Source of the DNA: Bacteroidia bacterium
GTDB taxonomy: Bacteria; Bacteroidota; Bacteroidia; Chitinophagales; Chitinophagaceae
Length of the DNA: 64,000 nt
Direction: 5' to 3'
Assembly (NCBI GenBank): GCA_030429205.1
Contig: JAUICZ010000001.1
Span: 1 to 64,000 of the forward strand
The notes under the pieces were generated by a model. It searched no databases. It was not told the DNA's origin and saw only the letters and a program-made list of their open reading frames with translations. A program made the translations under genes and the position numbers. Below are positions 4,849 to 37,619 of the stretch, piece by piece (position 1 is the stretch's first letter; every line of letters begins with the position of its first letter).

Positions 4849-6333
4849 CTATTGTGTCGTTAACCTGTTGACACCGGCCTTTGCTTGCTGCTGTATGGCA
4901 TTTTTGAAATCGTGCTGTTTCATGGATAGTGCCTCGCGATACATACTGATAGCTAACTTATGTTCTCTATTCCTTTCGTACAAAAAGCCAAGCTGCAAGG
5001 CTGCTCTTGCGCCAAATTGCTCATGCCTGTCTCTTCCAAGCTCTATAGCTTGTTTATATTCTGTTATGGCTGTAGTTTCCATGCGCATCTCATCATTAAC
5101 CCTGGCTACACGGTAATGATATTCCAGCAACTCACTTTCTTTTGTAAAGTCTTTAGGAGAGTACCTTTTAAGCAATTGATATGCAGTATTATTATATCCT
5201 CCATCTATGAGCAATTGAGATTTCAGCAGCACCTTATTGGGCCATTCTATACGTTCCGCAAAACGTTGAGCGTGTTTATCAGCATCTGTTTGTGTATTCC
5301 CCTCTTCTGCTATCATTTGTTTATACTGCATAGCTGTTTCGGGCATACCAAAAAGGTAATTTGCATATGCTAATTTTTGCAAGGCATCTTTTACAAACAA
5401 AACACCCTTATAATTCTTTAAAAAGCGCTTAAATGCGTCAATAGAACGTTTATCTAAATGGTGTAGCAAACTATAACCATATTCATAGTCAAGTGTAGGA
5501 TATTGATAATAATACCTATTCTGCTGTGCGGCCTCCAGTACCCTGGCAGCATCTGCAGCTTTTCTGTAATTAAGGGCAATATTAGCTTTAACAAAACTGT
5601 TCAGAAGGTTATCCTTTGTGCCAAACTCATTAGAAGACACTATACTCCATGCCTTCTCTTTATCGGAAAGCAAGAAGTAGTTGAGGTAAACATTATATAT
5701 AAGTGCTTCTTCATAAAATAGGTCGCCCGGCTGATGTCTGTCTAAAAAACCTTGAATCTTCTTAGTACCAGCCTTAAGATTGCCTTTCATCCCGAATATA
5801 GACGCTATCCACTTATAATTATCAGGCAAAGCATCTACCGCAGCCTCTTCCATGCCAAAAAAGATATCGTCATACTCAAAATCCGGGAATTGGGTCTGAT
5901 TTTCTTTCAAGAGTATAAACGATTTTCTGAAGTAGTTTGCCGCTTTTAGCTTGTCGTCAAACCTTACCCCAATAAAGGCCCAGTGCATATATATGCCGGC
6001 CTTACACATTTTATACCACGGGGAATTTTTATCTCCTGCATTGATCAATGCTAAACGTTTATCCAGGTGCGGCTTCCTTCTTTCATACTCATCTTGCCCT
6101 CCGTTAAACAACAATGTCAAGCAGTCTTCATAATCTGCAATATAAACAGGCATTAAGTTCTTAGGGTGCTCCGCAAGCTCTTTATTGATGGCATTGTAGC
6201 CGGCATCGTTTTGTAACGCTAAAAAAGCCTGGTATGCTTTTTTACAGTTATCAGTATAGCTATAGTTGTGTTTCTGTGCAAACACACCACCACCAAACAA
6301 AACCAGTAAAAAAAAGCACAGGAAAGCCCTCAT
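4849..6333 (-). CDS. secreted/periplasmic TPR-repeat protein
   Basis: A 494-residue protein with an N-terminal signal peptide (MRAFLCFFLLVLFGGGVFAQ), so it is exported. The body is alpha-helical with TPR-like helix pairs, clearest at the C-terminus (ITEYKQAIELGRDRHEQFGA and LGFLYERNREHKLAISMYREAL). I chose the ATG at 6333 over the longer frame start at 6417 because the signal peptide starts there and a perfect -7 element (TACCTTTG, 6346-6339) sits just upstream. That would place the longer start inside or before the promoter. TPR proteins usually act as protein-binding scaffolds; partner and pathway are not evident. It is monocistronic and divergent from the EGF-like lipoprotein gene. Confidence 0.85.
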   Translation of the reverse strand: MRAFLCFFLLVLFGGGVFAQKHNYSYTDNCKKAYQAFLALQNDAGYNAINKELAEHPKNLMPVYIADYEDCLTLLFNGGQDEYERRKPHLDKRLALINAGDKNSPWYKMCKAGIYMHWAFIGVRFDDKLKAANYFRKSFILLKENQTQFPDFEYDDIFFGMEEAAVDALPDNYKWIASIFGMKGNLKAGTKKIQGFLDRHQPGDLFYEEALIYNVYLNYFLLSDKEKAWSIVSSNEFGTKDNLLNSFVKANIALNYRKAADAARVLEAAQQNRYYYQYPTLDYEYGYSLLHHLDKRSIDAFKRFLKNYKGVLFVKDALQKLAYANYLFGMPETAMQYKQMIAEEGNTQTDADKHAQRFAERIEWPNKVLLKSQLLIDGGYNNTAYQLLKRYSPKDFTKESELLEYHYRVARVNDEMRMETTAITEYKQAIELGRDRHEQFGARAALQLGFLYERNREHKLAISMYREALSMKQHDFKNAIQQQAKAGVNRLTTQ

Positions 6334-6338
6334 TGCAG

Positions 6339-6346
6339 CAAAGGTA
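6339..6346 (-). promoter_or_regulatory. -7 element, near-leaderless TPR gene
   Basis: TACCTTTG on the minus strand ends 5 bp before the ATG at 6333. A TTTG (6373-6370) lies 23 bp further upstream, slightly long for a -33 element. The transcript would have almost no 5' leader. Confidence 0.45.
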
Positions 6347-6410
6347 CTGTGCAGTACCGAACAATAAGGCAAATACTTTGTTATTCTTAGACAAAGAAAA
6401 TATACAAATC

Positions 6411-6442
6411 GTTGCAAACCAGCTAAAACACCACTATTTTTG
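6411..6442 (+). promoter_or_regulatory. promoter of EGF-like lipoprotein gene
   Basis: GTTG (6411-6414), 20 bp, then a perfect TATTTTTG (6435-6442), matching the Bacteroidota -33/-7 arrangement. It predicts a leader of about 35 nt before the ATG at 6484. Confidence 0.5.
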
Positions 6443-6483
6443 GCACAGCTTTTGAACTATATAAAATTCTAAAAATTTACTTT

Positions 6484-6999
6484 ATGAAATCAATACGTAA
6501 CATTGCACTGAGTGCCCTTTTAACAGTAGGCACATTCTCCACTGTGTTTTACACATCTTGTACTAAAGACGAATGTAAAGATGTAGTTTGTAAAAATGAT
6601 GGCACTTGCGTTAGTGGTACTTGTAACTGTACAGTAGGCTATACCGGCTCTGATTGTGGTTCTGAAATAAGAACAACATATTACAACACTTATAAAGGTG
6701 ACGGCTCTGATTCTGATGGCGACACTTACACAAACTTCGGCTTGAAGTTCTATGCAGTGGGTACACAAGCTAAAACATTTGGGATGGACGTTTTAGATGC
6801 TAACAACGTAAGCATCGGAGCATTTACAGTTACTCTACAAACAAACGGTACATTCGTAGTAAACCAAAAAGTTGATGGAACTACTACATTTACCGGTACA
6901 GGTACTATCAGTGCTACATCGTCTTCTCTAAGCCTAACAGTTGATGATACTATTGATGGAAAATACATCATTACATTTGCTAATATGCTTAAGCAATAA
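6484..6999 (+). CDS. lipoprotein with EGF-like module
   Basis: A 171-residue protein. Its N-terminal signal ends in FYTSC with the lipidated Cys at residue 26, a Bacteroidota-style lipobox. It is followed by a six-cysteine EGF-like module (CKDVVCKNDGTCVSGTCNC and GYTGSDC, about residues 31-58) and a Thr/Ser/Gly-rich C-terminal beta domain of about 110 residues with no recognised family. It is predicted to be anchored in the outer membrane. Such proteins are common in Bacteroidota and mostly uncharacterised, so the specific role is unknown. It has its own promoter and terminator, so it is probably monocistronic. Confidence 0.8.
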   Translation: MKSIRNIALSALLTVGTFSTVFYTSCTKDECKDVVCKNDGTCVSGTCNCTVGYTGSDCGSEIRTTYYNTYKGDGSDSDGDTYTNFGLKFYAVGTQAKTFGMDVLDANNVSIGAFTVTLQTNGTFVVNQKVDGTTTFTGTGTISATSSSLSLTVDDTIDGKYIITFANMLKQ

Positions 7000-10016: not shown

Positions 10017-11675
10017 TTAATCCAGTAATAGCTTCCGGTAATAAGCCCCTGCATTATCTGTAACAACCACCAGATATACCCCCCTTTGAAGATGCTGAAG
10101 GTTCAAACGCACATGCTTTTGATCTGGCTTAGATAGATATACCCTCCGCATTACCTGATCATATATCTCTATCTTCTCGATAGTTTTTTTATGCTCTACA
10201 GTAAAAACTCCTTCTGTAGGGTTGGGATATATAAAAAAGTTATTCTCCTCAATATTGCTAACACTACCAGGAGGCGGAGTTATTATTTTCTTTCTTGTAG
10301 ATGTGTCTTTCAAAGCCCACAACTCTCGGCCATTACCTTTATAGTCAGAGCAATAATATAAAGACGAATCGTACACAATTACTTCTGTAGTTCCGTAAAT
10401 AGGGTTGTTTTTAGGATTGGGTGGAGATACTGTAATAGCTCCCGTATCGGTACCGTCATATCTTGTAATGTGTCGACTACCACTATTGATTGTCGCAGTC
10501 ATGTACAAATAATCATTGTACTTTATTAATGTAGAAGCTTCCGGTATAGTGCCATCAGGTTTTACCTTCGTGTTTTTCACCACTTTAGTTCCGGCAACTG
10601 TGCCATCGGTAACCCATAAATTAGTTTTTGTACCGTTCTGGTCTGCATCTGTACATGCAAAATATACTTTATCATCGTACTCACAAAAGTTAGATATACC
10701 ATTAGTACTAACTCCCGGCTTGTATGGGAATACCTGTAGTTGTTGAGTACCGGATGGCGTACCATCCGTTAAATACAAATATGCCTTACCAACACTAAAA
10801 CGTGTTGTTGCCAGCATCAGTACTTTTCCTTTGTACTCCGTTATATATAAGCCCGATACTCCAAAATTAGGGCCGGGCACAACTTCTTTCAGTAATAATG
10901 TACCACCGGGTGTACCATCAGTAACCCATATTTCGTAATAATGTGCCGATGTATACTGTAGCATGTATAATTTGCCTAATACCTCCTGTATAAGTATTAT
11001 AGAATTACCGGTAAAGATTCCGGGAACAGGCACTGTTCCGGAAGGGGTACCATCTGTTGCCCACAGCTCTCTGCCATTAGCAGTATTTACCTGAAAATAA
11101 ACCTTACCATTGTACAGTGTAAAATCATATGGATAGCTACCTGTATCGCTAACATAAATATCCTTTAACAGCTTAGTACCAACTTCAGTACCATCACTGA
11201 TCCACAACTCCATTCCGGCAGTAGAATCTTCTGCAGCAAATATCAACTTGTTGTTATATACTATTTTGTTCTGAGGGTCAGAGTTTCCTATACCTACATT
11301 TATATCCTTTACCATTTTGGTACCAGTATCCGTTCCATCACTCACCCAAAGCTCTCTGCCAAATACAGGGTCTGAGGCCATGAAGTATGCCTTGTTGTTC
11401 ATAGTAACAAACTTACCCGGACCACCACCTGTTTTACCTGGATAGATATCTTTCAGCATTACTGTTCCGGTATCAGTACCATCTGTTGCCCATAACTCAA
11501 AACCATGAGATGTATCGCGAGCGGAAAACAGCAGCTTTCCACCGGCAATATTAAAGTTTGCCGGGCTTGAGCCTACCTTACCGGGGCTAACTTCAAACTC
11601 TTTGAATGTAAACGAGGGCTGAGCGAAAACAGTACAAGTCAATAAAAATGAGCATGCAAAAAGCAACTTCTTCAT
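10017..11675 (-). CDS. secreted DGT-repeat protein with T9SS sorting domain
   Basis: A 552-residue protein with a signal peptide (MKKLLFACSFLLTCTVFAQ) and about nine tandem repeats of the type ELWVSDGT followed by GTKxxKDI, each about 45-50 residues and likely forming a beta-propeller-like fold. The C-terminal segment (YPNPTEGVFTVEH, then RGVYLVVV and YYRKLLLD) is a type A T9SS sorting domain, so the protein is probably released or surface-anchored after outer-membrane passage. The start at 11675 is chosen because the signal peptide begins there; an ATG at 11684 is 3 codons upstream. It is paralogous to the gene at 12613-14310, with a secreted cyclophilin in between. The molecular role of the repeats is unknown. 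Confidence 0.88.
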   Translation of the reverse strand: MKKLLFACSFLLTCTVFAQPSFTFKEFEVSPGKVGSSPANFNIAGGKLLFSARDTSHGFELWATDGTDTGTVMLKDIYPGKTGGGPGKFVTMNNKAYFMASDPVFGRELWVSDGTDTGTKMVKDINVGIGNSDPQNKIVYNNKLIFAAEDSTAGMELWISDGTEVGTKLLKDIYVSDTGSYPYDFTLYNGKVYFQVNTANGRELWATDGTPSGTVPVPGIFTGNSIILIQEVLGKLYMLQYTSAHYYEIWVTDGTPGGTLLLKEVVPGPNFGVSGLYITEYKGKVLMLATTRFSVGKAYLYLTDGTPSGTQQLQVFPYKPGVSTNGISNFCEYDDKVYFACTDADQNGTKTNLWVTDGTVAGTKVVKNTKVKPDGTIPEASTLIKYNDYLYMTATINSGSRHITRYDGTDTGAITVSPPNPKNNPIYGTTEVIVYDSSLYYCSDYKGNGRELWALKDTSTRKKIITPPPGSVSNIEENNFFIYPNPTEGVFTVEHKKTIEKIEIYDQVMRRVYLSKPDQKHVRLNLQHLQRGVYLVVVTDNAGAYYRKLLLD

Positions 11676-11708
11676 AGGGAGCATTTCGGTTAATTATCAA
11701 TTCTTTTC

Positions 11709-12521
11709 TTATGGTTGCAACAACAACTTTTTATAAACAGATCCGTTGTCGGCAGCAATTTTTATGATGTATATACCTTCAGGGTTACCTGACAGGTCAA
11801 CGGTAATATCTTTTTTATTAGCAGCTTCTGTTTCGAACAGTACAGCACCCTGAAGGTTAGTCACCATTACACGAGTAGCCATATTTTGTGGTAAAGATAT
11901 AAGAAACAGACCTTTTGTCGGGTTAGGGTAAATATTAACAGTAAGTTCTGCTTGAACATTGTTTACTGATGCGGGCCATTTTGTAACACGCACACTGTCC
12001 ATTACCACATCTGTCAATGGTTTATCTTGCGGGTTACCCGAAGACCCTGACGTAGCTACATTACCTATTGCCTGCACTACCGACGAACCACTTGTAACCA
12101 TGCCAAATACAGTATGCTTATTATCTAAATGAGCGTTTGTAACAAGGTTGATAAAAAACTGACAATCGCCTGTGTTTGGCTGCCCTGTATTTGCCATAGA
12201 CAATGCCATTGGCACATTCTTTAAAGAAGAATGGAATTCATCAGGAATTTTAGTGCCTGTTCCTCCTGACCCTGTACCTGTAGGGTCACCACCTTGAATC
12301 ATAAAGTTCTTTATTACCCTATGAAAGATGATCCCGTCATAAAAATTACGCCCTACACGAGCCAAAAAGCTATCAACAGTTATGGGAGCTAAACTATCCC
12401 ACATTTTTATAGTGAAGTCTCCCATTGTAGTATAAAAGGTCACCTCTGTGCGTTGTGCTTCAACCTTGTTCGCAAATGTGCAAAACAGTACTATTACAAA
12501 TAAAAAGTATAGCTTTTTCAT
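11709..12521 (-). CDS. secreted cyclophilin-type peptidyl-prolyl isomerase with T9SS tail
   Basis: A 270-residue protein with a signal peptide (MKKLYFLFVIVLFCTFANKVEAQ, residues 1-23), a cyclophilin domain (about 25-190; motifs NFYDGIIFHRVIKNFMIQGG, CQFFINL, HTVFGMV) and a C-terminal type A sorting domain (IYPNPTKGLFLISLP, then PEGIYIIKI and VYKKLLLQP). It should catalyse cis-trans isomerisation of Xaa-Pro bonds outside the cell or on its surface. An upstream ATG at 12569 overlaps the terminator hairpin and is unlikely. A cyclophilin carrying its own T9SS signal next to two T9SS cargo genes suggests a role in folding exported proteins, but that is inference. Confidence 0.9.
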   Translation of the reverse strand: MKKLYFLFVIVLFCTFANKVEAQRTEVTFYTTMGDFTIKMWDSLAPITVDSFLARVGRNFYDGIIFHRVIKNFMIQGGDPTGTGSGGTGTKIPDEFHSSLKNVPMALSMANTGQPNTGDCQFFINLVTNAHLDNKHTVFGMVTSGSSVVQAIGNVATSGSSGNPQDKPLTDVVMDSVRVTKWPASVNNVQAELTVNIYPNPTKGLFLISLPQNMATRVMVTNLQGAVLFETEAANKKDITVDLSGNPEGIYIIKIAADNGSVYKKLLLQP

Positions 12522-12564
12522 AGAGTAGTTTTTTGTACAATATGTAAGATACACTTTTTGGCAT

Positions 12565-12592
12565 AACAAAAACCCTTCCGTAAAGAAGGGCT
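12565..12592 (-). terminator. intrinsic terminator after DGT-repeat gene 2
   Basis: A stem of CCCTTC/GAAGGG (12573-12578 with 12585-12590) is followed on the minus strand by a T-run. It lies 20 bp past the stop of the gene at 12613-14310 and before the cyclophilin gene. Confidence 0.8.
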
Positions 12593-12612
12593 TTGCTATG
12601 TATTAGTTATTA

Positions 12613-14310
12613 CTACTTGCTTATGCTTACTGTATGTACTTCTACATGCCTGTCCAGCTCTATTAGTACTTTATATATACCCGTAGCAATATTATTTAAT
12701 GATATTGTAGTTTGCGATTGCCCTCTTTCAAGCCCCTGACTATACACTTCTCTACCGGTAATATCGTACACACGTACCAAACCATTAAGAAATGAAGGGT
12801 TGTTAATATTTAGACTAAATGTGCCATTGTTTGGATTAGGGTATAACGTCGCTCTTCTTTCGGCTGTTATACCACCTATGCTCTGCGGAGTTGTTGACAC
12901 TTTTGCACGATGAAGGAATAACTCTTTACCAATAGCACCATCTGTCATAGCCAACCATACATTGTTGCTGTCAACAAAAATAAAGTCTAGCTCAGAGCTG
13001 GTTGCATTGTTAGGTATGTCACCTACATCTTCTACCATATATGTACCGGTATCTGTACCATCAGTACGCCACAACTCACTACCATTGGTGCCATCATCTC
13101 CATTTAAGTACATCACACCATTATATACATTATTAACTGTCAGCCTTTGCAAAAGCGTGCTGTAAGAAGAGGATACTGTATACTTACTACCATCTCCACT
13201 ACCTGTGTTGATATCGTACAATAGTTTTGTTCCGTTTGATGTTCCATCAGTTATCCATAGTTCATTACCGTGTGTGCCGTCATCTGCTCTGAATATTAGT
13301 TTATTATTCAGTATGCCTAGCGGTGCAGGATCAGCCGAAGATGCTCCGGGATAAATATTCTTCAAGAGCTTAGTACCATTTTCTGTGCCGTCTGTCACCC
13401 ATAGCTCTTTGCCCAATGTAGAAGTTTTAGCAGTGAACAGGAGCTTGCCATTTACCACCATAAATCTCTCTGGCTCACTATTACTGGCTGCGTTTATATT
13501 TTTTACCACTTTGGTACCTTGTGCCGTACCGTCTGTACTACACAATTCTATACCTGTAGAGCCAGGGTTTTGCCCTGCAAAATAGACCTTGCCATTGTAC
13601 TCTATCATAGTATGTCCGCTCGCACCAGAAAGTGCACCCGGATAGAAGTCTACTATCATTTTTGTACCATTGTCCGTACCATCGCTTGTCCACACTTCGT
13701 GCCCCGAATTACCATCTGAGGCGAGGAAGAACATTTTGCCATTTGCAATCGTCAATGCCGTTACGTAGCTATCTCCACTACCCGGGTTCATGTCTTTCAC
13801 CAACAAGGTGCCTGAAGGTGTGCCATCAGTCTCCCAAAGCTCTTCGCCCACGCTACTAATACCATTGAAGTATACTTTATTATTGTAATACTTAAACCAT
13901 GTATTAGCAGACAGACCAGTATCTTTCCCGGGGTAAATATCTAAAAGCATTTTAGTGCCTCCCGTAGTACCGTCACTTACCCACAACTCCGTACCATGTA
14001 CACCATCATCACCGGTAAAGTATAGTTTACCATTTAGATATATTGCGCTCTTATATAGGTACCCTGATTTACTACCCGGGTTGATATCCTTAACTATTTT
14101 GGTGCCTTGCGAAGTACCATCACTTACCCACAACTCTCTTCCGTTAATTGCATCGTAAGCAGAAAAAAGTATGTCACCATTAGGTAGCGCTGCTAGTATT
14201 ACCGGGCTGGAAGGGTCACTACCGGTATTGATATCCTTTACCCTGTTGATCTTTTGAGCATTTGCATGTATTGCAAATACACTTAATACTAAAAATATAA
14301 TTTTTCTCAT
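12613..14310 (-). CDS. secreted DGT-repeat protein 2 with T9SS sorting domain
   Basis: A 565-residue protein with a signal peptide (MRKIIFLVLSVFAIHANAQ) and about nine repeats of the form ELWVSDGTxxGTKxxKDI spaced by about 48 residues (for example HGTELWVSDGTTGGTKML and GSELWRTDGTDTGTYMV). A C-terminal T9SS type A domain follows (LYPNPNNGTFSLNI, then ATGIYKVLIEL). It is paralogous to the gene at 10017-11675 and has its own downstream terminator. It is predicted to be secreted or cell-surface. The repeats resemble those annotated ELWxxDGT in Bacteroidota; substrate and function are unknown. Confidence 0.88.
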   Translation of the reverse strand: MRKIIFLVLSVFAIHANAQKINRVKDINTGSDPSSPVILAALPNGDILFSAYDAINGRELWVSDGTSQGTKIVKDINPGSKSGYLYKSAIYLNGKLYFTGDDGVHGTELWVSDGTTGGTKMLLDIYPGKDTGLSANTWFKYYNNKVYFNGISSVGEELWETDGTPSGTLLVKDMNPGSGDSYVTALTIANGKMFFLASDGNSGHEVWTSDGTDNGTKMIVDFYPGALSGASGHTMIEYNGKVYFAGQNPGSTGIELCSTDGTAQGTKVVKNINAASNSEPERFMVVNGKLLFTAKTSTLGKELWVTDGTENGTKLLKNIYPGASSADPAPLGILNNKLIFRADDGTHGNELWITDGTSNGTKLLYDINTGSGDGSKYTVSSSYSTLLQRLTVNNVYNGVMYLNGDDGTNGSELWRTDGTDTGTYMVEDVGDIPNNATSSELDFIFVDSNNVWLAMTDGAIGKELFLHRAKVSTTPQSIGGITAERRATLYPNPNNGTFSLNINNPSFLNGLVRVYDITGREVYSQGLERGQSQTTISLNNIATGIYKVLIELDRHVEVHTVSISK

Positions 14311-18549: not shown

Positions 18550-18623
18550 GGACTGGTAGTTCAGCTGGTTAGAATGCCGCCCTGTCACGGCGGAGGTCGC
18601 GGGTTCGAATCCCGTCCAGTCCG
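18550..18623 (+). tRNA. tRNA-Asp (GTC)
   Basis: A 74-nt cloverleaf. Acceptor GGACTGG pairs perfectly with CCAGTCC, the anticodon stem is CCGCC/GGCGG with loop CTGTCAC (anticodon GTC at 18584-18586), and the T arm is CGGG TTCGAAT CCCG. The discriminator base is G, typical of Asp. CCA is not encoded. Confidence 0.97.
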
Positions 18624-18628
18624 CAAAG

Positions 18629-18670: not shown

Positions 18671-18725
18671 TTGTCCACGCTGTCCACATTTGTACAGGCA
18701 CTTATTTCGTGGACAAGATGGACAA
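18671..18725. repeat. 55-bp dyad repeat, copy 1
   Basis: The outer 17 bases on each side form an imperfect inverted repeat (TTGTCCACGCTGTCCAC with GTGGACAAGATGGACAA), and each arm itself contains two TGTCCAC units. The copy is exactly 55 bp like copies 2 and 3. It lies just past the tRNA-Asp terminator. Confidence 0.8.
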
Positions 18726-18744
18726 CATAACACACAACTCTTGT

Positions 18745-18799
18745 TTGTCCGCGCTGTCCGCCTGACACCCGGCACCTATATTGCGGACAAGACGGACAA
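18745..18799. repeat. 55-bp dyad repeat, copy 2
   Basis: The same architecture and length as copy 1, but the TGTCCAC units read TGTCCGC and the opposite arm changes in step (GCGGACA). Base pairing is therefore preserved despite sequence change. It lies upstream of the cytochrome c gene. Confidence 0.8.
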
Positions 18800-18847
18800 C
18801 TACTATTATACCATTTACGAATACATATACTTTACTAACTTTCAACT

Positions 18848-19291
18848 ATGCTTATCAAGAATATTAACTTGATCATAGTAAGTAGTGTTATACTGATACT
18901 CTCCATTGGTGGAATATTAGTATATCATAGTATCAGCTCTATCAAAAACAACAGGCAGGAAGAAGTATTTATTTGTGGGAATTCAATTTATGATAACAAT
19001 ATAAAAATTAGTGGTAGTATAGACTCTATTGAGGTTGATGGTAAAGCTTTATTTCAATCAAACTGTGCCTCTTGCCATAACCCCGTAAAAGATGCTACAG
19101 GTCCGGCACTAAGAAGTATTATTACAGTTCGTTCTCCCGATTGGATTTATAAATTTCTTACTGATACCACCTTCCTACCTATAGATGATAGGGCTAGACG
19201 ATTAAAAAGCGAGTACGGGTCTAAGTGCATGAAGTTCCCCAACCTTACACCTAATGACGTAGAAGCATTACTGAATTATGTGTACATGTAA
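18848..19291 (+). CDS. membrane-anchored class I cytochrome c
   Basis: A 147-residue protein with one N-terminal transmembrane helix (about residues 6-28) acting as an uncleaved anchor or signal. A cytochrome c domain follows, with the heme-binding CASCH (about residues 75-79) and a likely axial Met in SKCMKFPNLT near residue 128. It would carry electrons on the periplasmic face; the partner oxidase or dehydrogenase is not encoded nearby. A -7-like TAACTTTC (one mismatch) ends 4 bp before the ATG. The gene is bracketed by copies of the 55-bp dyad repeat, so it may be part of a small insertion behind tRNA-Asp. Confidence 0.85.
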   Translation: MLIKNINLIIVSSVILILSIGGILVYHSISSIKNNRQEEVFICGNSIYDNNIKISGSIDSIEVDGKALFQSNCASCHNPVKDATGPALRSIITVRSPDWIYKFLTDTTFLPIDDRARRLKSEYGSKCMKFPNLTPNDVEALLNYVYM

Positions 19292-19296
19292 TTCAT

Positions 19297-19351
19297 CTGT
19301 CCACGTTGTCCACGTTTTAGGTGCCTGTACTTATGCGGACAAAGTGGACAA
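19297..19351. repeat. 55-bp dyad repeat, copy 3
   Basis: A third copy of the same length, with arms CTGTCCACGTTGTCCAC and GCGGACAAAGTGGACAA. Its centre (AGGTGCCTGTAC) resembles the reverse complement of the centre of copy 1 (TGTACAGGCAC). It lies directly after the cytochrome c stop codon. Confidence 0.8.
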
Positions 19352-34673: not shown

Positions 34674-37619
34674 CTATAATGTACGTTTTACTTCTACCTC
34701 TTCGTAACCTTCAATAATATCACCAACTTTTATGTCGTTGTAGTTCTTGATTTGTAAACCACACTCATAACCTGCACTTACTTCTTTCACATCATCTTTA
34801 AAACGTTTTAACGATGCCAGCTCACCACTGTATGTTACAATACCTTCACGTATCAAGTTCACTTTTGTATTACGAGATATTTTACCATCCAGTACATAAC
34901 AACCTGCGATACTACCTACGCCACTGATCTTGAACACCTCACGTACCTCAACATTACATACTGTTTTCTTCTCGATCTTAGGTTCAAGTAGACCTTCCAT
35001 CGCACTCTTCACTTCTTCTATTGCATCGTATATGATAGAGTAATTTCTGATCTCAATATTCTCTTGCTCTGCTAGTTTAGCAGCTTGTATTGACGGACGC
35101 ACCTGGAAACCAAGTATAATCGCATCCGACGCTGTTGCTAACAATACATCACTCTCTGTAATCTGACCAACACCTCTATGCACTACGTTTACCGCTACTT
35201 CTTCTGTAGTTAGTTTTTGTAAAGAGTCACTTACCGCTTCCACAGAACCATCAAAGTCTGCCTTGATAATAACATTAAGCTCTTTAAAGTTACCTAATGC
35301 CAGACGACGTCCGATCTCATCAAGCGTAATGTGTTTCTGCGTACGAATACCTTGTTCACGCAATATTTGTGCACGATGTGTAGCAATACTCTTAGCCTCA
35401 TCTTCATTCACATATACTTTTGCTTTCTCACCGGCTTGTGGTGCACCGTTCAAACCTAATATCTGTACCGGTACAGATGGTCCTGCTTCTGTAACTCTCA
35501 AACCATGCTCATTAAACATAGCTTTCACTTTACCAAAGTGCTGACCACATACTACCATATCTCCCTGCTTTAATGTACCTGCCTGTACAAGTACCGTAGC
35601 CTGATAACCGCGCCCTTTATCCAAAGAAGCTTCAATCACACTACCTATTGCAGATTTATCCGGATTAGCTTTCAACTCTAATAACTCAGCCTCAAGCGAT
35701 ATTTTTTCTAATAGCTCATCAATGTTCAATCCTTGCTTCGCTGATATTTCCTGACTTTGGAATTTACCGCCCCAATCTTCTACAAGGATGTTCATAGCAG
35801 ATAACTGCTCTTTAATCCTTTCAGGGTTGGCACCTTCCTTATCTATTTTGTTGATCGCAAAAATCATCGGCAAGCTAGCTGCCTGGGCATGCGAAATAGC
35901 CTCTTTTGTTTGCGGCATTATCGCATCGTCCGCAGCAATTACAATTACTGCAACATCTGCTACTTTCGCTCCACGAGCACGCATTGCTGTAAATGCCTCG
36001 TGACCCGGTGTATCTAAGAAGGTAATTTGTTTACCAGAACTGGTTTCTACCCTATAGGCACCAATGTGCTGTGTAATACCACCAGCCTCTCCGCTGATAA
36101 CATTTGCACTTCTGATGTAGTCAAGTAAAGATGTTTTACCGTGATCTACGTGTCCCATAATAGTTACAATAGGAGCACGTGATTCCATATCTTCAGGATC
36201 ATCCACTTCCTCCTCTTCAATATCCGCTTCTTCCTTAAGGTCTATGAATTCAACTTCATAGCCAAACTCTTCTGATACAAGCTCGATAACCTCAGCATCC
36301 AACCTTTGGTTTATAGATACCATGATACCTAAGCCCATACATTTACTAATGATGTCTGTAAACTCTACATCTAGTAAGCTGGCCAATTCACTTACAGAGA
36401 TGAACTCTGTAACTTGAATTACCTTATCCTTCAATTCTGCTGCTTCTTGTTCCGCAGCACGTCTTTCAGCCATTTCCTCACGCTTACTACGGCGGTATTT
36501 AGCTTTCGACGGTTTATTTCTTCCACCACCACCGGCTAGTTTAGCTTGTGTCTGGCGGATTTTATCCTGAATTGCTTTTTCGTCTATTTCTTGTATTGGA
36601 GCATTTGCCTTGCCTCTTCTATTACCTCCGCCTTTTCTATCTCCTGCACCACCGCGTCTGTTATCTCCGCCACGGTTTCCACCACGCCCTTGTATGTCCT
36701 TAACTCTTTCAGGCTTTTTCTGAACAGGGATACGCTTTCTACGCTTTTCTTTTGATTCCTTAGGCTTGTCCTCTTTAACCGGCAAATTGATTTTACCAAT
36801 AATCTTAGGGCCTTCCAACTTAGGAGCTTTCATTTGTATATGCTCCATTGGCGGTGCCTGTTCGGCTGGCTGTTCTTTCTTTTTAGCAACAACCGGCTTC
36901 TCTTCTTTCGATGTCTCTTTTACAGGCTTTTTAGCGACTTTACTCTTCTCTACCTTTTCTTCCTTCTTCGGCTCTTCTTTTTTCTTAGCCGACTTTTTAG
37001 GTCTGGTAGATTGGTTCAACTCATCTAAATTGATCTTCCCTACCAGTTTAGGGCCACCTACTGTAGATTTCTTTTCTTCTTTAGGTTCTTCTTTAACCTT
37101 AGGCTCTTCTGCTACTGGAGCCTTCTCCTCCTTCTTCGGCTCTTCTTTAGCTACAGGTGGCTCTTCTACCACAGGAGCCTTTTCCTCCTTCTTCGGCTCT
37201 TCTACCTCTGGAGCCTCTTCCTCCTTCTTCGGCTCTTCTTTAGCTACAGGCTCAACAGGCTGCTCCTCCTTTTCCGGTGCTAGAGCTTCCTCTGTTTCCT
37301 TAGTTTCTTCTGTAGCTGGTTCAGAGTCCTCCTCTTCTTTATCGCGAACGGTAATGTCCAGCTCCTCCTTTGTTTTATCAATATTATCCAACAAAGCGCC
37401 TTTAGGCAGATCGATCTCATCGCTTTTGCGTTTTGCCAGTTTATCCTGAGCAAACTCTTCCTGCAAAGCCTGATACATTTCTGCTGTAAGCTTAACGTTT
37501 GGATTACTCGACTTCAATTCAAAATTCTTCTCTGTAAGGAACTCAATTAAGGTATCCTTTCCGATGTTAAATTCTTTCGCTGCAGCCAGTAATCTTGGTG
37601 TTTTTGTTGCTGTCGCCAT
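34674..37619 (-). CDS. infB: translation initiation factor IF-2
   Basis: A 981-residue GTPase that delivers initiator tRNA to the ribosome. The N-terminal IF2 domain is followed by a long low-complexity region of Glu/Lys/Pro repeats (EEPKKEE-type, about residues 80-310) and a Gly/Arg-rich stretch (about 318-345). The G domain has [34 protein letters not shown] and [11 protein letters not shown], and domains II-IV follow. The last gene of the rimP-nusA-infB operon. Confidence 0.97.

Follow-up and report, generated by a model that had tools for sequence, protein, structure and literature searches.

Dyads around a Cytochrome c Gene of a Bacteroidia Bacterium Are Probably Orphaned Iteron Arrays of an AAA_25 Helicase Family

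Three 55-bp dyads that surround a cytochrome c gene in a Bacteroidia bacterium (genome G000) are probably iteron arrays of an AAA_25 helicase with a C-terminal helix-turn-helix (AAA_25-HTH), origin-like and paired around a gene cassette whose copy in this genome is orphaned. This reading draws on relatives, for which we computed an association of arrays with helicase genes, covariation of the array unit with the DNA-binding helix, exchange of blocks, and both occupied and empty sites.

RESULTS

The dyads of the window and the gene between them

In the window (the whole stretch of 64,000 nucleotides that was analyzed), a sequence-only reading had described three 55-bp copies of nested build, and a sequence check bore this out. 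All copies are equal in length and lie at the coordinates claimed, and each arm contains a pair of TGTCCRC-type units at a 9-bp spacing, with the complement in the opposite arm. Dyad 1 (18671 to 18725, plus strand) has TGTCCAC units at 18672 to 18678 and 18681 to 18687 and inverted units at 18709 to 18715 and 18719 to 18724, a pattern that the genome has at no other locus. Dyad 2 (18745 to 18799, plus strand) follows head to tail after 19 bp, with G replacing the A of dyad 1 in all four units (TGTCCGC); both lie 3′ of tRNA-Asp. Dyad 3 (19297 to 19351, minus strand) is inverted, as revealed by the loop core GGCACYTA that the window dyads have in common. Its alignment scores (inverted/direct) were 31/24 and 21/15 against dyads 1 and 2, while dyad 1 against dyad 2 gave 8/27. 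Thus, the cytochrome c gene is bracketed by inverted copies. The motif TGTCCNNNNTGTCC, with at most one mismatch, occurred 9 times in the window compared to 1.83 expected, and none of 100 shuffles reached 9. With short units 9 bp apart in two opposed halves, the window array has the build of an iteron array.

The bracketed cargo is an open reading frame (ORF) of 147 amino acids (18848 to 19291, plus strand) with a hydrophobic N terminus, as judged by eye, and a cytochrome c domain at residues 64 to 145 (Pfam PF00034, E value of 4.6e-8), which is 46% identical to part of a 432-codon reading frame elsewhere in the same genome. The placement of the dyads around a cytochrome c gene behind tRNA-Asp (18550 to 18624, plus strand; ARAGORN and Rfam) was likewise confirmed; the tRNA gene is an upstream neighbor outside the cassette, and the Rfam scan returned tRNAs only. 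The upstream array lies 48 bp before the cargo start (24 bp at locus L095 and 98 bp at locus L096, two helicase loci of the same genome), and dyad 3 begins 5 bp past the cargo stop codon (4 bp in L095 and L096).

Nine ORFs were scanned around the cassette, including accA, folD, a radical SAM gene, and bacA; the gene set of Tn4555-type elements (integrase, excisionase, helicase, DUF6371, and mobilization genes) was absent among them, and no helicase gene or recognizable remnant was found in the window. The gene accA is conserved in same-genus relatives, and tRNA-Asp adjoins it in G002, where it follows accA, and in G006 and G009. The DNA 3′ of tRNA-Asp/accA in G002 and G001 was unrelated to that of the window, and the folD, cytochrome, radical SAM, and bacA proteins had no match at the loci of five relatives. 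An empty site of the window cassette was not found in the same genus. The window also contains repeats of other kinds. Three overlapping copies of a 60-bp repeat (37098 to 37250, offsets of 57 and 36 bp) sit inside a 981-amino-acid ORF (34674 to 37619). A 67-bp repeat with seven copies (10869 to 14137), six of them 61 to 70% identical to the reference copy, is common to two minus-strand ORFs (10017 to 11684 and 12613 to 14310), which encode repeat proteins.

Between copies 1 and 2, A-T had been seen to change to G-C in both arms together, which was taken to imply selection on the fold or on a dimeric binding site. The paired changes are real (2 of 14 pairs), but covariation across the three copies was not significant, as 102 of 500 shuffles reached the observed count. 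At the A/G position, all four units switch together between copies 1 and 2 and are mixed in copy 3. There, one changed pair places A opposite C on the plus strand (G-U on the other strand), yet every unit remains a good TGTCCRC, a pattern that favors a protein-binding unit rather than a fold. Joint changes of the units are to be expected because the unit in relatives varies with the DNA-binding helix of the ATPase encoded next to it (see below). Therefore, of the two options, the binding site was supported, and no sign of a hairpin constraint was seen. It is very improbable that the dyads are RNA or DNA hairpins, terminator-like or structural, that were selected for folding. Two pairs are altered on both sides, and single-strand folding beats shuffles (z of −3.0 to −3.7), as is expected of any dyad; besides the lack of significant covariation, this explanation has to face the finding that mirror symmetry in unit number and spacing is kept in 14 of 71 dyads and equal unit number in 37 of 71.

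Copy number in the genome

The full TGTCC dyad pattern matched only the three window sites in the 3.64-Mb genome (reversed control, 0), and a looser exact pattern found no other TGTCC dyad; the sole further TGTCC half-match was located at C4:889762. A lack of further copies and of covariation would have counted against the sequence-only reading, which saw a resemblance to REP/BIME-type elements, and both were observed for the TGTCC unit, as exact patterns gave no more copies and covariation was not significant. The statement of that reading that the window holds no REP transposase extends to the whole genome, in which PF01797 (Y1_Tnp, the Y1/RAYT transposase) had no match at an E value of 0.001. 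REP/BIME elements spread by a RAYT transposase are short imperfect palindromes between genes, as the dyads are. Y1_Tnp was present in 16 of 22 genomes searched, and the three same-genus relatives searched have Y1_Tnp genes; the hairpins listed at 30 fetched Y1_Tnp loci of relatives included no TGTCC palindrome. Three copies at one locus, a genome with no Y1_Tnp match, short units of the binding type, and the lack of a hairpin constraint all set the dyads apart from such elements, and as far as this genome shows, we reject this origin, the least probable of those considered here.

The array search of G000 covered two unit types, TGTCC and TTCCA, and among these, TGTCC arrays were confined to the window. 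Arrays of the same build with TTCCA units were found at three other sites, each adjoining a helicase gene and each with two arrays; one more TTCCA match lay at C4:2138173, while the reversed control gave two. In G024, of the same family, nine dispersed near-perfect palindromes of 49 to 51 bp were observed (TGTCCTTCGTGTCC...GGACACGAAGGACA; loci L007, L009, L011, and L013 to L018), together with four Y1_Tnp matches. These palindromes (TGTCCTTCG...) were set aside as different, with no AAA_25-HTH match in the nine 3-kb loci, and may be real REP-like elements.

Arrays beside AAA_25-HTH helicase genes

A pattern search of 394 genomes of the family revealed TGTCC dyads in seven, namely, G000, G024, and five members of genus g126. 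Some of the g126 dyads flank genes and start right past the stop codon of an AAA_25 protein with a C-terminal resolvase-like helix-turn-helix (396 amino acids at L071). The family contains 31 AAA_25-HTH genes in 22 of the 394 genomes. An array at the stop codon was detected at 24 of these 31 loci when units of at least 5 nt were required in both halves (strict detector) and at 25 when 4-nt units were allowed. Three more arrays were judged present by eye (L101, L102, and L110), and those at L113, L114, and L115 were not convincing. On 980 shuffled 430-bp regions, the detector responded in 0.2% at 5 nt, in none at 6 nt, and in 3.7% at 4 nt. Twenty fetched loci held 29 dyads, and letter-shuffled sequence of equal total length (257,696 bases) held 2. 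The arrays of relatives consist of 5- to 7-nt units with a period of about 9 bp in opposed halves; neighbor spacings were 8 to 10 bp in 234 of 239 cases in 71 dyads, a figure that is partly built in since the detector required 8 to 10 bp. The array loops are not strongly AT rich (G+C of 0.40). Outside the family the link was weaker, as the strict detector found arrays at 4 of the 16 phylum-search loci that are not from G000; one of the four is the G204 locus again (L180), and another is a copy of a Tn4555-like array (L170).

A PHROGs comparison matched the ATPase to DnaB-like phage helicases (E value of 1.2e-13), and a weak match linked it to the solved DNA helicases 1e0j/1cr0 (T7 gp4; E value of 0.0075). 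Scanning viral contigs returned a single one by pattern (L084, which has no helicase) and none by protein. A pattern scan of genome contigs returned six stretches, of which L078 belongs to the relative G364 and L079 to L083, having no helicase match, were set aside. At L135 (G173:C7, 6789 to 8214), two TTCC-type arrays lie on either side of the helicase gene itself, and an ORF outside both arrays (5742 to 6743) appears restriction-endonuclease-like by eye.

G000 itself has three homologous helicases (56 to 61% identical), and a search with E values up to 10 gave no fourth. Each is followed by an array just past its stop codon, then by cargo, and then by a second array. They carry GLGT, GAGT, and GLAS helices and TTCCA-type units (TGTTCCA at L091 and L093, CATTCCA at L092). 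Among relatives, an SKST helix occurs in G364 and an SAAT helix in G260.

Covariation of array unit and DNA-binding helix

The relation between unit and helix was analyzed at the 27 loci with a readable helix and a unit, the units being read by hand from array listings. The set includes L101 and L102, although the strict detector missed their arrays, and leaves out L109, L110, L113, L114, L115, L164, and all 16 phylum loci. Unit distance tracked helix distance given the ATPase body (partial Mantel r of 0.61, n = 27), as it did with near-copies dropped (r of 0.51, n = 21) and among G000/g126-like loci (r of 0.45, n = 16), with P values of 0.0001 to 0.0003 in all three sets; for body distance given the helix, r was negative (−0.21 to −0.26). 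TGTCC units occurred with SKST, GKST, or SKSK helices at seven loci (L097, L100, L102, L116, L119, L120, and L163), and the other 20 had no TGTCC. Within the set, VNR without KST went with TTCC, except at L121 (GTTTCA), VNK or VNN went with TTCA or TTCG, and HMKV or HMRV went with TGTAAC. Two loci outside the set, L114 and L115, count against such a code; their longer proteins (40 to 41% identical) have a GKST helix, and no TGTCC array was found at the stop codon.

Close pairs allowed helix and body to be separated. Where bodies were 92 to 98% identical and helices different, the units differed in seven of eight pairs; in the eighth (L100/L102, helices 81% alike), the unit was common to both. 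The g126 bodies of L086, L139, L140, and L141 are 92 to 98% identical, whereas the loci diverge in the final 100 to 130 bp of the gene and in array and cargo; L086 and L140 are the exception, with a common helix type and unit and different cargo. Helix, array, and cargo differ likewise on the 95% identical bodies of L085 and L133, both from G364. These sequences suggest that exchange involves helix, array, and cargo together as one block. The paralogues L138 and L137 of G336, with 95% identical bodies, helices GKGTVSKYLG and GTGTVSRYIN, and units TGCCCA and TGCTCCA, represent a near-minimal change of predicted specificity. The six g126 genomes that encode two helicases (G209, G260, G303, G336, G364, and G431) each have two different units, a situation that recalls incompatibility; the rule fails in G000, where two of three helicases (L091 and L093) share TGTTCCA.

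By the same relation, the TGTCC units of the window predict an SKST/GKST-type helix in the partner helicase. Since no helicase with such a helix was found in G000, the window cassette is orphaned in this genome and would be either a relic or awaiting a matching helicase in trans. G364 contains both a TGTCC cassette that lacks a helicase (L090) and a TGTCCA helicase (L085), the combination expected at the sequence level if cassettes were served in trans.

Cargo between paired arrays

Sixteen cargo genes lie directly 3′ of a family helicase and its array (strict or by eye) with no DUF6371 gene there, L135 being left out of the count. A second array was seen at all but two of them (L137 and L138), so that two arrays bracket cargo at 14 loci. 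Nine of the 16 match PADLOC families at an E value of 1e-5 or better, although a match to a PADLOC model is not proof of defense: bSEFIR (L129), Old-like (L131), AIPR/AbiU (L132), the candidate family PDC-S31/DUF2971 (L138 and L142), SIR2/ThsA-like (L140), Fic, candidate PDC-S04 (L141), TIR (L139), and, over a short stretch, a TIR-effector model (L137). The L133 cargo gave a weak match (5e-4), and six had none (L130, L086, L071, L094, L095, and L096); the cargo of the three G000 helicase loci is among those with no defense match. At L094, a second small ORF (97 amino acids, HTH-like) lies between the arrays. Ten flanking control genes gave one match, of RecA to an ATPase model; the difference (Fisher P of 0.023) is indicative only, as the controls were hand-picked and not random. 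Four array-adjoining genes without a helicase had no PADLOC defense match, namely, the window cytochrome c ORF, a GldM-like gene at L088, L090, and L216.

The cargo often resembles defense genes, which are often regulated, and one array stands upstream of the cargo start in the window, at L095, and at L096. The strongest rival to the helicase reading is an operator model, in which an AAA_25-HTH regulator binds the arrays and controls the cargo gene, with the second, downstream array perhaps serving in looping. We judge it unlikely. The ATPase resembles DnaB-like helicases, integrase-bearing elements of relatives encode the protein together with DUF6371, and the concentric arrays described next would be odd for operators.

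Nested arrays and occupied or empty sites

In G336 and G388, arrays are arranged concentrically between a cation-efflux gene and RNase H as A-B-C, a small region, and C-B-A (A, TGTCCA; B, TGCTCCA; C, TGTCCC). The aligned ends of the convergent cation-efflux and RNase H genes are about 30 bp apart in G410 and G135 compared to about 730 bp in G336, so that this locus is empty in the former two, while the arrays that fill it in G336/G388 differ from those in G209. In the latter genome, RNase H is adjoined by two GTTTCA arrays, which were detected with 4-nt units; a 247-amino-acid ORF ends 8 bp before the first of them, and no array was seen upstream of this ORF within the locus. The arrays of L088 (G303) are nested as well.

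Such insertion between genes, and the fact that the inverted alignment scored higher for 9 of 13 array pairs, could also be explained if the arrays were the terminal inverted repeats of a nonautonomous transposon or of an integron-like cassette that depends on a transposase or integrase encoded elsewhere for its movement. This explanation appears somewhat less likely still than operators. When the single filled/empty pair of relatives was inspected by eye, no target duplication was apparent; integrase genes were seen only in elements where DUF6371 directly follows the array, and unit number and spacing vary, unlike in typical transposon ends. The unit TGTCCRC of the window differs from the RYYYAAC/GTTRRRY motif of integron attC sites.

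DISCUSSION

The arrays have counterparts in known mobile elements. Bacteroides plasmid records contain an AAA family ATPase gene with a GKST helix and a TGTCCCA array within the gene end. In CP103138, Zn-ribbon/DUF6371 and mobilization genes come after the array, and the same circle carries integrase and excisionase genes. Such records, which do not themselves name Tn4555, are called Tn4555-like here by gene order, on the basis of the Tn4555 gene list in an excerpt of PMC13183296. They share helicase, array, and DUF6371 gene with the family loci, and CP103138 has a single array with no cargo bracketed by arrays; the window, in contrast, has no integrase, helicase, or DUF6371 gene. DUF6371 and the Zn ribbon were identified by Pfam at L095, L096, L126, L129, and L163, that is, near two of the three G000 helicases (none was seen in L094). 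TGTAACA-type elements of the family have the order integrase, small HTH_17 protein, helicase, array, and DUF6371 (by Pfam in L126 and by the look of the sequences in L125, L136, and L143). The Tn4555-like element of Butyricimonas (L164, NZ_CP032820.1) carries a TGTCCC array in the helicase gene end (6042 to 6119) and, 157 bp away, another before the DUF6371 gene (6277 to 6345), and is possibly an intermediate toward paired arrays.

According to an excerpt of PMC7581432, the Rep helicases of SaPIs read iterons directly 3′ of their own gene with a C-terminal domain. The likeness lies in a helicase gene with short repeats directly downstream and a C-terminal DNA-binding domain, an arrangement found at 24 of the 31 family loci and not in the window. 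As far as that excerpt goes, the SaPI helicases belong to other families (DUF927; D5/primase C-terminal domain) than AAA_25, and one origin lies beside rep, whereas here two arrays surround cargo and arrays may be nested. P4-like satellites, which are small mobile elements, likewise have variable anti-phage defense genes at a hotspot; the abstract of that work (PMC9122126) names no bounding arrays of the initiator type.

In the mechanism that we propose, the 55-bp dyads would act as double-stranded iteron arrays, that is, as clustered sites for a DnaB/gp4-like AAA_25 helicase that would assemble into hexamers and bind through its C-terminal helix-turn-helix. From the resemblance of the helicase, the SaPI precedent, and the DUF6371 neighbors, we infer that the array is an initiator-binding origin; in Tn4555-type integrase-bearing elements, the array at the helicase 3′ end, before the zinc-ribbon/DUF6371 gene, is probably the replication origin. 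In G000 and its relatives, the array is often paired around cargo, usually one gene, and the window contains a helicase-less cassette made up of two arrays, the cytochrome c gene, and one inverted array. As a guess, paired arrays might let the helicase act on the enclosed segment, by local replication or together with recombination. Cassettes could be copied or mobilized by a matching helicase in trans. Several observations count against the helicase reading. An origin alone does not account for a pair of arrays around a gene, and the window has no helicase gene or remnant. The link is weaker outside the family, and array pairs are inverted in most but not all cases. The G+C content of the loops, the G000 cargo with no defense match, and the unit shared by two G000 helicases likewise stand against it.

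Iteron origins beside a helicase gene are known already. In titles and the starts of abstracts from a partial coverage of the literature, we found no account of paired or nested arrays around cargo with a helix-unit code. It is conceivable, and we suggest it tentatively, that these loci constitute a gene cassette of a new kind, with cargo, often similar to anti-phage genes, between two iteron arrays. Its defining parts would be a replicative helicase and the arrays bound by it rather than a transposase or integrase, and its marks would be block exchange onto a conserved ATPase body, concentric nesting, and helicase-less cassettes that persist and are served in trans. What looked like a REP element would thereby become part of a predicted protein-DNA code, in which an orphan array would reveal, through its unit, the helix expected of its helicase. 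The arrays also indicate a candidate replication origin of Tn4555-type elements, and paired arrays beside a helicase gene would provide a sequence handle for defense-like cargo, including proteins without a known family.
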